In this document: piece after piece, positions 5,525-26,652 of the stretch | Layout: each line of letters opens with the position of its first letter | Position numbering within the stretch: the first letter of the stretch is position 1 | Assembly: GCA_017542465.1 (NCBI GenBank) | Contig: JAFXXB010000031.1 | Location: forward strand, 1 to 32,628 | Reading direction: 5' to 3' | Length of the DNA: 32,628 bases | DNA from: Bacilli bacterium | GTDB taxonomy: Bacteria > Bacillota_I > Bacilli_A > RF39 > UBA660 | Notes under the pieces: generated by a model | What the model was told of the DNA's origin: nothing | The model's database searches: none | What the model saw: the letters and a program-made list of their open reading frames with translations, nothing else | Made by a program: the position numbers and the translations under genes

Positions 5525-5827
5525 TTAACCTACTATCTTAGTTACTTTTAATTTAGTATATGGTTGTCTATGTCCCATATGAGTTTTATTACGGTTGTTC
5601 TTTTGAACTCTCTTTAAGATGTTAATTTTCTTATTCTTACCATGTTTTAAAACTTCACATGTAACTTTAGCACCCTTAACATATGGAGTACCAGTCTTAT
5701 CTCCAACGCATAATACTGTATCGAAATCAACAGTCTTTGAAGGTTCTACTTCTAACTTTTCAACAAAGATTTCATCACCTTCAGCAACATAATATTGTTT
5801 TCCACCAGTTTCGAATATTGCTTTCAT
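5525..5827 (-). CDS. rplU: Large ribosomal subunit protein bL21
   Basis: 100 aa. Diagnostic sequence: [10 protein letters not shown] near the N-terminus and the C-terminal [13 protein letters not shown]. The length is normal for bL21, which binds 23S rRNA in the 50S subunit. AAAGGAGG lies before the ATG. It is the first gene of the operon with prp and rpmA, and is preceded by a structured 5' leader of about 100 nt and a clear promoter. This fits autoregulation by free L21, which is proposed for this leader family. Confidence 0.98.
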
Positions 5828-5925
5828 ACATTAACCTCCTTTAATATTTTTTGAAGACTCGCCTTTAAGGTGGGATAAACCACTTACTACCTTTTTAGTG
5901 CGGTTCGTAAGAAAGACTTACAAAC
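5828..5925 (-). ncRNA. L21 leader RNA (5' UTR of rplU)
   Basis: The minus-strand leader contains a GTAAG/CTTAC hairpin (5907-5911 with 5917-5921). It is followed by the compact run CGAACCGC, GGTAGTAAGTGG, TTTATCCCACC and GGCGAGTC, in the order expected for the Firmicute ribosomal protein L21 leader, in which AACC/GGTT and GGTGG/CCACC segments can pair. Its position directly before rplU agrees. The match is from memory of the motif, not a covariance-model hit. The start is set about seven bases after the -10 box. Confidence 0.75.
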
Positions 5926-22193: not shown

Positions 22194-22206
22194 TTACTCA
22201 TCTTTT
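22181..22206. terminator. Perfect palindromic bidirectional terminator joining two stop codons
   Basis: AAAAGATGAGTAA (22181-22193) and its exact reverse complement TTACTCATCTTTT (22194-22206) meet with no spacer. The left half encodes K-D-E-stop of the SPFH gene and the right half, on the other strand, encodes K-D-E-stop of the BRO-like gene. T tracts follow on both strands. Confidence 0.9.
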
Positions 22207-23039
22207 ATTTTGTCTAAATATTTATAATCTAATGAATTATTATTTGATATTGCTGATTTATTTATTTCTCTTTCATATGACTTTCTTGCGTCTTGAGCTA
22301 CTCTTCCTCCTCGTCTAGCAACACTCATATTTTCATCTAATCCATTAGGATGTTCTTCCTTAGCTATATCTAAAGCTGCTTCTTCACCTAAATCAGCAAG
22401 TATAGATTCTATTCTAGTCATATTATCCCTTAACGACTCTTTTCTTAGACCCTTGTATTCTTTATATTCTTTAGCTGTCATGCCCGACCATTCTTTATAT
22501 ATTTCATTTGTAAGCATAGCATATTCTATATTACTATTTATACCACCTTCTTTCCAAATATCAGTTAATTCTTTTCTATCTTGTATTCCTTGAATTCTTT
22601 TAGATATCCACTTCTCATCATATCCTTTAGTTCTATAGATATCTATTGCCCTTTGAACAGCAATAGATGGATTAAATGTTTCATCAATTCTTTCACTTCC
22701 TAATTTTGCTAACCATTGTTTAATAGGTTCAGCATTTTTACTAGGAATAGATTCAATTAATCTAAACATTCCTTCAATATCAACTACATCTGTTAGACGA
22801 TACTTCCCATCTTGTGATTTAAGTTTCAAAGCGTTACAATTTGTAACGGTTTCATTTCCCTCGTTTTTAAGCCTCTTTTTTAATACTCTCCAGTATGTCT
22901 GAGGATTAGTGCTTTCACTTAAAACACCTACAACATCAACTACGCTTATGTAGTATTTCTCTGAATCTTTATCCCATACAGTTCTGATAGACTCATTGTT
23001 AAAAAGTTTGTTAATCAAATACATTTTTTCATTATTCAT
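22194..23039 (-). CDS. BRO-N/DinD-like protein (antirepressor-like)
   Basis: 281 aa. Residues about 8-105 match the BRO-N/antirepressor domain: TVWDKDSEKYYISVVDVVGVL, then a stretch with TYWRVLKKRLKNEG, and FRLIESIPSKNAEPIKQWLA. The C-terminal half is helical with SARRGG-type patterns and KSYEREINKSAIS, as in DinD (DNA-damage-inducible protein D) and phage antirepressors. BRO proteins are DNA-binding and are common in phages; DinD-type versions also sit in chromosomes, in E. coli under SOS control. No other phage gene is adjacent. Its upstream element matches that of the hydrophobic peptide gene at 6167-6238. Codon use resembles its neighbours. Confidence 0.75.
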   Translation of the reverse strand: MNNEKMYLINKLFNNESIRTVWDKDSEKYYISVVDVVGVLSESTNPQTYWRVLKKRLKNEGNETVTNCNALKLKSQDGKYRLTDVVDIEGMFRLIESIPSKNAEPIKQWLAKLGSERIDETFNPSIAVQRAIDIYRTKGYDEKWISKRIQGIQDRKELTDIWKEGGINSNIEYAMLTNEIYKEWSGMTAKEYKEYKGLRKESLRDNMTRIESILADLGEEAALDIAKEEHPNGLDENMSVARRGGRVAQDARKSYEREINKSAISNNNSLDYKYLDKIKDE

Positions 23040-23163: not shown

Positions 23164-23901
23164 TTTACTTTGATAATTATATATATATTTTAACAAAAAT
23201 TTACGAGGTGCTATTCTTGAGAAAAATACTCCTAGTTTCATAATAAATGTTGGAACTATAATCATCTTTCCTTTAAACATGCCCTTAACAGCTTCTTTAG
23301 CTACAGTAGTTGCATCTACACCTTTAGTTGCAAATGTTCCACCTGCTACTTTATTAAAGTTTGTTTCAACAGGTCCAGGACATAAAGAAGAAATATGAAC
23401 ATTAGATTTCATTTCTTTTAATTCTTGATAAATAGCTTCATCTAATCTACATACATAATTTTTTGTTGCATAATAAGTTGATAAGTTAGGACCAGCTAAG
23501 AATCCAGCAGACGATGCAACATTTAATATGTATCCTTTATCTTTCTTAATAAAATCTTTTAGATATAATTTAGTTAATATATGTACTGCTTTAATATTAA
23601 CATCTATCATATTTAATTCTTTATCTAAATCAGTTTCATTAAATAATCCAAATAAACCAAAGCCTGCATTGTTAACTAAGATATCTATATCTTTATTATC
23701 ATTATATAACTTCTCTAAACTCTTAATATCTGATACATCACATACATAATAATCTACATTAACACTCTTAATATCTTCACTTATTTCTTTTAATTTTTTT
23801 TCATCTCTTGCAACTAGTACAAGATCTATTCCTTTATTTGCAAGTTCTTTAGCTATAGCTAATCCTATGCCTGAAGAACCACCTGTTATTAATGCTTTCA
23901 T
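23149..23901 (-). CDS. Short-chain dehydrogenase/reductase (DltE-type)
   Basis: 250 aa. TGGSSGIGLAIA at the N-terminus binds NAD(P), NNAGFGLFG is present, the catalytic motif is YYATKNYV with Tyr and Lys, and the Ser before it lies in NVASSAG. The C-terminal part (about 200-250) is hydrophobic and basic (MKLGVFFSRIAPRKFLLKYIYNYQSKK), so it may lie against the membrane. It matches the uncharacterised DltE-like SDR subgroup. The ATG overlaps the previous gene's stop by four bases (ATGA). Substrate unknown. Confidence 0.88.
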   Translation of the reverse strand: MKALITGGSSGIGLAIAKELANKGIDLVLVARDEKKLKEISEDIKSVNVDYYVCDVSDIKSLEKLYNDNKDIDILVNNAGFGLFGLFNETDLDKELNMIDVNIKAVHILTKLYLKDFIKKDKGYILNVASSAGFLAGPNLSTYYATKNYVCRLDEAIYQELKEMKSNVHISSLCPGPVETNFNKVAGGTFATKGVDATTVAKEAVKGMFKGKMIIVPTFIMKLGVFFSRIAPRKFLLKYIYNYQSKKMSK

Positions 23902-24434
23902 TTATTACCTCCAAATATAGATAATACTTTACTTACTACAAGTATTATATTATCTGCATTTTTAATTGCTACAAGTTTAAATATAGCTTTACCACCCACA
24001 GTAAATGATGATATTAAAGCTGCAAGTACAACACTTATAACTGAATTAGGCCATCCAGTTACTTGATATATATTAATAGTTAATATAGCACCTATAGAAC
24101 CAGATATAATACCACATACATCTCCAACTATATCATTACATATTGATGATATTTGATTAGAGTTCTTAATCATATATATACCTTGTTTAGCTCCTTTAAT
24201 TTTTTTACTACTTAAAGCATGAAATGTTGATTCTTTTCCACTTATAGCAGCAGTACCAATTAAATCAAATATAATACCAATTGATATTACTAAGAATAAA
24301 ACTATAGATAATATTATTATTGATAATAACCCTGTATTAAATTGTACTGATATAACATTTGATATAGTACTAAATATAATTGATAGAATAAATGTTAATA
24401 TAAATACGATAAATATCCATCTTCCTGCTTTCAT
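23898..24434 (-). CDS. Small integral membrane protein, CorB-like by pattern
   Basis: 178 aa. Four hydrophobic segments (about 5-27, 35-62, 105-125, 128-150) surround a polar central stretch: FDLIGTAAISGKESTFHALSSKKIKGAKQGIY, then KNSNQISSICNDIVGDVCGI. I associate this central pattern with a Firmicute family labelled Mg2+/Co2+ transporter CorB-like without experimental support; no CBS domain is present. GGTGATAAT precedes the ATG. Coupled to the SDR downstream by a four-base overlap. Transport role uncertain. Confidence 0.6.
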   Translation of the reverse strand: MKAGRWIFIVFILTFILSIIFSTISNVISVQFNTGLLSIIILSIVLFLVISIGIIFDLIGTAAISGKESTFHALSSKKIKGAKQGIYMIKNSNQISSICNDIVGDVCGIISGSIGAILTINIYQVTGWPNSVISVVLAALISSFTVGGKAIFKLVAIKNADNIILVVSKVLSIFGGNK

Positions 24435-24478: not shown

Positions 24479-24512
24479 AAAAAAACTTTATCGCTCTTTT
24501 CCCCGATAAAGT
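24479..24512 (-). terminator. Strong intrinsic terminator of the candidate RNA gene
   Basis: A 9-bp stem ACTTTATCG (24485-24493) pairs with CGATAAAGT (24504-24512), with T7 on the minus strand (24479-24485). Confidence 0.88.
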
Positions 24513-24982
24513 GTTTTTCTATGTATGGTATATCATAAATCAATTTTACGGCTTAGGTCGAGATGTGTTTCACTCCATCTCACTTAAGATTACTCTTAAG
24601 CACTTTCGTATTATGAGATAGAACTAGAATAATCTAGTTTCTCGATTGCCACTTAGTCCGCACCTTAATACTTATGACATATACACGCTAGAGGTTTTCC
24701 CTAACAATAGTGACTATCCTTATATGCTTTTGCATCCATTATTTCATCTTACGAATCCCAAATGAACACTCACATCATGTATGTTATTATATTATTTCTA
24801 ATGTGACGGGGTTAAAGGAGTTTCTGTTCAGTTACATGCCATTGTAATTATCCTAAAACCTTAAATCATTTAATCACCCAGCCCTGGCAGACCAAGCAAA
24901 TAAATGAAGTGTCATATCTACAATTAGTGGATTTTTAGCCCCACCTTCAAATAGTATAATGACTAGCATAATGCACCACACA
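24479..24982 (-). ncRNA. Candidate large structured non-coding RNA (~500 nt)
   Basis: The stretch has no credible coding frame but has its own promoter (24988-25016) and terminator. Local hairpins on the minus strand include: GTGG/CCAC (24927-24944); AACTAG/CTAGTT (24622-24639) extended by GAGA/TCTC; the perfect 7-bp CTTAAGA/TCTTAAG with 4-base loop (24583-24600); GAGATG/CATCTC (24560-24581); ATGC/GCAT with 4-base loop (24724-24735); and TCACAT/ATGTGA (24770-24806). A long-range pairing GGGG..TAAA (24934-24942) with TTTA..CCCC (24808-24816) is possible. I found no tmRNA, RNase P, SRP or 6S signature, and no T-box or riboswitch core. Its size is like the large ornate RNAs of Firmicutes (OLE, ROOL, GOLLD), but I cannot match any of them. 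Confidence 0.65.
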
Positions 24983-24987
24983 AGATA

Positions 24988-25016
24988 ATTATATCAAAAA
25001 AAGTGATTTTTTGCAA
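24988..25016 (-). promoter_or_regulatory. Promoter of the candidate RNA gene
   Basis: Minus strand TTGCAA (25011-25016), exact 17-base spacer, perfect TATAAT (24988-24993). The -35 and spacer lie inside the terminator hairpin of the upstream pyrophosphatase gene. Confidence 0.85.
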
Positions 25017-25023
25017 ATCACTT
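24996..25023 (-). terminator. Intrinsic terminator of the pyrophosphatase gene
   Basis: A 9-bp stem AAGTGATTT (25001-25009) pairs with AAATCACTT (25015-25023), T7 on the minus strand. It overlaps the promoter of the downstream RNA gene. Confidence 0.85.
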
Positions 25024-25032
25024 TCATAGTTT

Positions 25033-26652
25033 TTAGTTACCTAAAACATCCATAATAATAGGTATTATTTGTTGTTTTCTAGATACAATATTTTCTAATT
25101 TATAGCCTTGTTCTAATTCATCTATACCATAAGCTATTTCAAGTATATTTTTAGAATTATCTGAATATATTATATATGATGTATTAGATATAAAATCAGT
25201 TACATATAATGCACATACATCATATCCATGTCTTTTAGATTCTTGATTAAGTTCATCTACTAGATCTTTAATAATAGGTTTATATATCTTAAAGTCTGTA
25301 GTAAAAACTTGAGATACACTAAACTTATGATCACCTATAGAATATTCTTTATTATCTTTAAATATAATATCTTCAGGTTTTAATCCTTTAATAGATACAC
25401 CTGATTCTAATAACTCTAATCCATATGTTTTATAATCAACACCAGCTATACGAGATAATATCTCAACTACCTTCTTATCTTCATCTGTTGTTGTTGGACT
25501 ACTAAATCCTAAGGTATCAGATAAAATACCTGATAACATAATACCTGCTATATCTTTAGGTATTGTTATATTATTCTCTTTATACATATGATAGATAATA
25601 GTATTAGTTGCTCCAACAGTCATGGTTCTAATACTTATAGGTTTAGATGTAACTATATCACCTAAGTTATGATGATCCACTATTTCAAGTATCTCAGCTT
25701 CATTTAAACCATCTACAGCTTGACTCACTTGATTATGATCAACTAGTATTACTTTCTTTCTATTAACCTTCTTAATATCCATTGTTCTTAACATACCTAA
25801 ACAAACATCTTCATTATTAATAATTGGATAGTTAGTATGTTTTAACTTACTTATTTTATCTTCGACATCAGTTATATAATCATTATTATTAAATGTTATA
25901 CATGTCTCAGGTCTTTGAATAGACTTGATTGGATTACATAAGCATAAAACACGTGCAACTTTAAATGATGATTTAGATGATGTAATAACATTAACTTTCT
26001 TCTCTTTAGCTTTACTTAATTGTTCATCACTTAATTCTACATTGTTAACAAGTATTATTAATTTAACACCTTGTTTAATTGCATGTTCTATTACTTGTTT
26101 TCTATTACCTACTATAACTATTGAATTATTATCAAGATTCATATCCTTAATTAATGTAGCATCATCAAATGTTGATACACATGTTGTACCACATATATTA
26201 TCATCAACCTTATAATACTTTTTAGCAGCAAGTACTTCTACTAGATTCTTAAAAGATGTATCTAGTGTTAATGAATTATTATTTATCATATCAGATGCTA
26301 TCTCTTTTAAAGATACATATCCTTTAAACTTTTTATCTTTATCAACTAAAGGAATACCTGTTATACCATTTTCATGCATAAAGTTAAATGCATCAATGAT
26401 AGGAGCATCCTCACTTATTATAAAATCTTTATTATAATTAATATCTTTTACTTGTAATTTAACATCATTTAGATAAAGAGGTACTTTTATTTTAAACTTA
26501 TTTAAAGCATATAATGTTTCAGCATTAACATTACCTAATACTCTAGGTTCTGCATTTATGCCTAACTTATATTTAAGATAAGATAAACTAATACTACTTG
26601 TTACTGTATCTGTATCAGGGTTCTTATGTCCAACAACATATATCTTATCCAT
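25033..26652 (-). CDS. Manganese-dependent inorganic pyrophosphatase with CBS and DRTGG domains
   Basis: 539 aa. DHH-family motifs: VGHKNPDTDT (His9, Asp13, Asp15) at the N-terminus, VDHNQ and VDHHN (326-328) in the middle, then the C-terminal DHHA2 domain with SRKQQ. Inserted between the metal motifs are a CBS repeat (about 70-125), a DRTGG-type region (about 155-240) and a second CBS (about 245-298). This is the layout of the nucleotide-regulated CBS-pyrophosphatases of Clostridia and relatives, where AMP/ADP inhibit and diadenosine polyphosphates activate. It hydrolyses pyrophosphate to phosphate. GAAAGGAGG precedes the ATG. It lies 35 bases after the membrane gene upstream. Confidence 0.94.
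   Translation of the reverse strand: MDKIYVVGHKNPDTDTVTSSISLSYLKYKLGINAEPRVLGNVNAETLYALNKFKIKVPLYLNDVKLQVKDINYNKDFIISEDAPIIDAFNFMHENGITGIPLVDKDKKFKGYVSLKEIASDMINNNSLTLDTSFKNLVEVLAAKKYYKVDDNICGTTCVSTFDDATLIKDMNLDNNSIVIVGNRKQVIEHAIKQGVKLIILVNNVELSDEQLSKAKEKKVNVITSSKSSFKVARVLCLCNPIKSIQRPETCITFNNNDYITDVEDKISKLKHTNYPIINNEDVCLGMLRTMDIKKVNRKKVILVDHNQVSQAVDGLNEAEILEIVDHHNLGDIVTSKPISIRTMTVGATNTIIYHMYKENNITIPKDIAGIMLSGILSDTLGFSSPTTTDEDKKVVEILSRIAGVDYKTYGLELLESGVSIKGLKPEDIIFKDNKEYSIGDHKFSVSQVFTTDFKIYKPIIKDLVDELNQESKRHGYDVCALYVTDFISNTSYIIYSDNSKNILEIAYGIDELEQGYKLENIVSRKQQIIPIIMDVLGN

Follow-up and report, generated by a model that had tools for sequence, protein, structure and literature searches.

Our analysis identifies the intergenic stretch at 24479-25016 of the window, by which we mean the whole 32,628-nucleotide stretch of DNA that was analysed, as almost certainly the ole gene, encoding OLE RNA in a shortened, RF39-type form; both the family and the variant are already known. 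OLE ('ornate, large, extremophilic') is a large RNA of bacteria whose function is uncertain. The finding is genuine, though an ordinary one, in that the RNA family, the variant and the kind of host have all been described, and with it one candidate for a new RNA class is struck off the list.

Identity of the RNA and its shortened form

When the entire window was scanned with cmscan against Rfam, OLE RNA (RF01071) was placed at 24509-24995 on the minus strand with a score of 201.6 bits (E = 1.9e-55, gathering score 50), and the match spans the full model, positions 1-616 of 616. The same scan gave no second Rfam family at this stretch, GOLLD and ROOL included. The initial annotation had found no match to a known RNA, and its case for novelty gives way to this ordinary Rfam match. 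Among the three RNAs that it named as similar in size, OLE, ROOL and GOLLD, the first is the RNA itself, and the window RNA matches neither of the other two. All of these are large, ornate bacterial RNAs; GOLLD and ROOL form multimeric nanocages, and ROOL is tied to phages and prophages (PMC12286853).

The canonical OLE boxes are present in the window RNA (GUGGUGCA, CUAGUCA, GGGCUAAAAAUCC, CAAUGGCAU, CGGACUAAGUGGNAAUC and CUCGACCUAAGCCG). A length of 487 nt, compared with roughly 600 nt in the full-length form, and the loss of several consensus stems could be taken as signs of a large structured RNA that belongs to a new class and has no relation to OLE, but a match along the full model at four times the gathering score, the canonical boxes, the adjoining OapA gene and the fact that sister genera within the family have full-length OLE leave that reading with practically no probability, and we consider it ruled out by the Rfam match. 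Full-length members of the family score 330-435 bits, and the window OLE falls well short of this because it has lost entire stems. Model positions 198-241 correspond to only 12 nt in the window and positions 242-277 to 14 nt, and the 46 positions that form the apical P9 stem with its GGCC kissing loop are reduced to 2 nt. Named from their order, the stems lost before P9 are most likely P7 and P8, and by its position the kissing stem is most likely P9.3. What the RNA retains are the conserved boxes of its 5' part, stems P4 to P6, a P9 of reduced length and the long-range 3' domain. Full-length relatives from the same family have all of the stems; L002, for example, which scores 434.8 bits, has both of those lost before P9 in the window.

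Two OLE variants have been described by Fernando and Breaker (2024; PMC11332333): variant 1, of the TANB77 clade, in which P7, P8 and P9 are shorter, and variant 2, of the RF39 clade, from which P7 and P8 are entirely missing. The hosts of these variants are gut bacteria that have not been cultured; their genomes are reduced and for the most part lack OapB and OapC (PMC11332333). Judged by its sequence, the window OLE is best fitted by variant 2, with which it has in common the absence of P7 and P8, a host among reduced-genome, uncultured gut Bacilli, and OapB and OapC that are absent or not found. We see no clear difference between the two; a shortened P9, which in the window takes the form of the P9.3 loss, is given in the text of PMC11332333 only for variant 1. 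With the full-length OLE of Halalkalibacterium halodurans and C. acetobutylicum the window RNA shares the 5' boxes, the P4-P6 architecture, the base of P9 and the long-range 3' domain, together with an OapA gene downstream and the lack of MpfA, whereas it measures about 490 nt rather than about 600 nt, is devoid of P7, P8 and the P9.3 kissing-loop stem, and departs in its 3' stem from the UUUAAAGGGAAACC sequence that is otherwise conserved there.

Transcription signals and layout of the locus

No ORF of at least 60 aa lies between 24435 and 25032, which rejects a coding gene at 24479-25016 and agrees with the initial annotation in its description of a roughly 500-nt minus-strand non-coding stretch between a pyrophosphatase and a CorB-like gene. 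The upstream neighbour (25033-26652, minus strand) encodes a CBS/DRTGG-DHH-DHHA2 manganese-dependent inorganic pyrophosphatase, and downstream lies oapA (23898-24434, minus strand), encoding a 178-aa membrane protein. The GC content of the OLE stretch, reported earlier as raised, is 34%, whereas the window as a whole has 26% and each flanking gene 25%.

The proposed minus-strand promoter, TTGCAA-17-TATAAT, was located at 25016-24988, with its -35 hexamer TTGCAA at 25016-25011, a 17-nt spacer and TATAAT at 24993-24988; it also carries a TG extension, which makes the extended -10 element TGATATAAT (24996-24988, minus strand). Promoters of this kind are about as frequent in the window as chance would have it in AT-rich DNA (13 found, 16.6 expected by shuffling), but an extended -10 element (TGnTATAAT or close) occupies the matching position upstream of the RNA in all 18 compared sequences, and chance does not account for this fixed position in relatives. 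The interval first proposed for the gene, 24479-25016, coincides with the OLE gene, with the reservation that 25016-24996 is common to the terminator of the pyrophosphatase gene, a terminator-like hairpin at 24999-25025 on the minus strand (-10.6 kcal/mol, z = -5.0). The OLE -35 hexamer sits inside this hairpin (24988-25025, minus strand, for promoter and hairpin together), and a similar sequence is seen in G005 and G010.

At the other end, the strong terminator that had been noted is a hairpin followed by a T-run at 24512-24479 (-11.5 kcal/mol, z = -4.5), with a 9-bp stem, a loop containing GGGGAAAA and a U7 tail, which a simple scanner overlooked. This terminator is conserved within the genus, and its loop has GGGG in most members. 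The ole gene would have a sigma-A-type extended -10 promoter of its own, from which transcription yields an OLE RNA of about 500 nt, predicted to run from about 24981 to 24479 on the minus strand and to end at its own intrinsic terminator, with oapA next downstream on the same strand. The position of oapA directly downstream on this strand would also suit a cis-acting, untranslated, riboswitch-like leader of oapA rather than a free RNA, but the terminator closes the RNA before oapA, and other genes stand between OLE and oapA in two members of the genus that keep both, namely a 2359-aa ORF in G006 (L133) and ORFs of 575 aa and 546 aa in G010 (L134). Because of these intervening genes, and because OLE has a promoter and terminator of its own, the window OLE is most likely to function as a free RNA, and we regard the leader alternative as very unlikely.

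Two further features of the window were observed. A ribosomal protein L21 leader (RF00559, 40.6 bits) lies at 5845-5916 on the minus strand, with a minus-strand ORF, presumably rplU, directly downstream at 5525-5827. A 281-aa ORF at 22194-23039 (minus strand) contains a BRO-N domain (Pfam PF02498), a domain typical of the antirepressors of phages and mobile elements.

Structural conservation and distribution among relatives

The initial annotation proposed a structured RNA, and this is borne out by folding and by comparison. The fold of the 506-nt OLE transcript beats 100 of 100 shuffles (z = -4.7). When the Rfam OLE structure was projected onto the window sequence, 98 of the 104 projected pairs were canonical. 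Across 18 aligned sequences of the short form, 90.3% of helix cells were paired, compared with 37-44% when the partners were slid by 1 to 3 columns. Changes on both sides occur at 71 of the 104 pairs, and none of 500 shuffles matches any of the observed pairing values; the sequences are mutually related, such that the shuffle control overstates their independence, which the slide control does not. Many OLE positions are invariant across the 18 sequences. The pattern of substitution indicates that the OLE structure is under selection in the genus and its relatives. A long-range GGGG/CCCC pairing that had also been suggested was not upheld, as relatives show free variation at the CCCC, and a local OLE stem explains its presence.

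Because its structure is under selection, the window OLE is not taken to be a pseudogene. Decay following genome reduction would be in keeping with a small genome, a shortened RNA, the lack of OapC and the lack of OapB at its usual locus, but compensatory changes keep the helices across the genus and relatives, many positions do not vary, the promoter and terminator are conserved, and oapA is intact in every genome of the genus (11 of 11). We consider a decayed OLE most improbable and, on the covariation and the conserved control signals, ruled out.

Within the genus, 10 of 11 genomes contain OLE. The search of 98 relatives in all gave 40 with OLE, every one of them inside the family, and none of 14 control genomes has it; a further 18 OapA loci that were scanned all had an OLE of 464-504 nt. 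G004 was rejected as a case of oapA without OLE, since its oapA contig stops about 0.7 kb upstream, and assembly loss is the probable explanation. The nearest named relatives of the window genome are 'Bacilli bacterium' and Bacillales MAGs, which places the host in Bacillota. Candidatus Coprovivens excrementavium has the same shortened form of OLE, located before its OapA gene, and this organism has been placed in the order RF39 (PMC8035907), to which the window genome probably belongs as well.

A second OLE-like copy was observed at a contig end in genome G035 (L040:1446-1914, plus strand), which carries a full-length OLE as well. This copy is without the 5' conserved boxes (GUGGUGCA...CUAGUCA); it may be a pseudogene, or contamination introduced by binning.

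OapA, other partners and a possible minimal particle

Identification of the downstream CorB-like gene as that of OapA, the obligate membrane partner of OLE, is based on CNNM homology, a DxxxD motif and the predicted fold. The product of oapA gives a weak CNNM match (E = 1e-4, under the curated cut-off), and its AlphaFold model (pLDDT 83.7) has as its best PDB match the archaeal CNNM protein MtCorB (E = 0.007, probability 1.00), a predicted fold of the CNNM/CorB-like kind. A weak CNNM match and an MtCorB-like model have also been published for OapA, the latter for the H. halodurans protein. The DxxxD motif, which is DIVGD at residues 101-105 and is found in relatives too, distinguishes OapA from CNNM proteins (PMC11332333).

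Absences in the window genome, a 1.09-Mb MAG, are soft because it is 87% complete; those of OapC and MpfA are made firmer by a survey of 58 genomes of the family. The OapC family (PF01248) was found in 0 of the 58, with 7 of 14 controls positive, and CorC_HlyC (PF03471), the MpfA domain, likewise in 0 of the 58, with 11 of 14 controls positive. Two of the genomes, G025 and G055, have strong CNNM domains, though no CorC_HlyC was found in either. An anticorrelation of OLE and MpfA has been published, and the count of 0 of 58 for CorC_HlyC fits it. In B. subtilis, the gene for OapB (YbzG) lies between map and infA; here the map-infA interval is empty of genes. Most genomes of the family give just two KOW matches, whose sizes are those of L24 and NusG. 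OapB would appear to be completely absent, although a divergent OapB may be encoded elsewhere in the genome. Missing OapB and OapC agree with the published pattern for the clade, and neither protein is obligatory, OapB occurring in about 60% and OapC in about 45% of OLE hosts (PMC11332333).

As a family, OLE is characterised by a membrane-bound ribonucleoprotein, by OapA binding in a 1:2 arrangement and by an RNA dimer. The membrane-bound OLE-OapA ribonucleoprotein of H. halodurans is concerned with the handling of Mg2+, energy and stress (PMC12265935; PMC11332333). By analogy with that organism, the most likely picture is that an OapA dimer would bind the window OLE and tether it to the membrane, and that the resulting ribonucleoprotein would serve the homeostasis of Mg2+ and energy and the response to stress, perhaps in place of the Mg2+ exporter MpfA. 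The window OLE itself is predicted to be expressed.

We tentatively suggest, as a proposal that is rather less likely than likely to be correct, that the OLE particle of RF39 bacteria is a minimal one, consisting of nothing but the RNA core and OapA and lacking OapB and OapC as well as P7, P8 and the dimer-kissing stem P9.3. The functional heart of OLE would then lie in its 5' boxes and its 3' domain and not in the P4-P9.3 dimer body. The naturally shortened OLE of reduced-genome gut Bacilli marks those parts of the RNA that evolution treats as dispensable. To our knowledge, the 3' domain is not resolved in current cryo-EM structures, and short OLE RNAs may suit structural work on it.

A still shorter OLE of 381 nt (134 bits) was observed once, in the relative G045 (L041:1501-1881, plus strand). 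It is without nearly all of model positions 74-277, the part from the first hairpin to P9 that covers P4 to P8 and with them P4a, the stem proposed to bind OapA, and retains the 5' boxes, the 3' domain and a promoter-like sequence; an intact oapA follows 4 nt downstream, and the contig stretch contains no Ns. Read in terms of a minimal particle, this RNA would take the shortening further.
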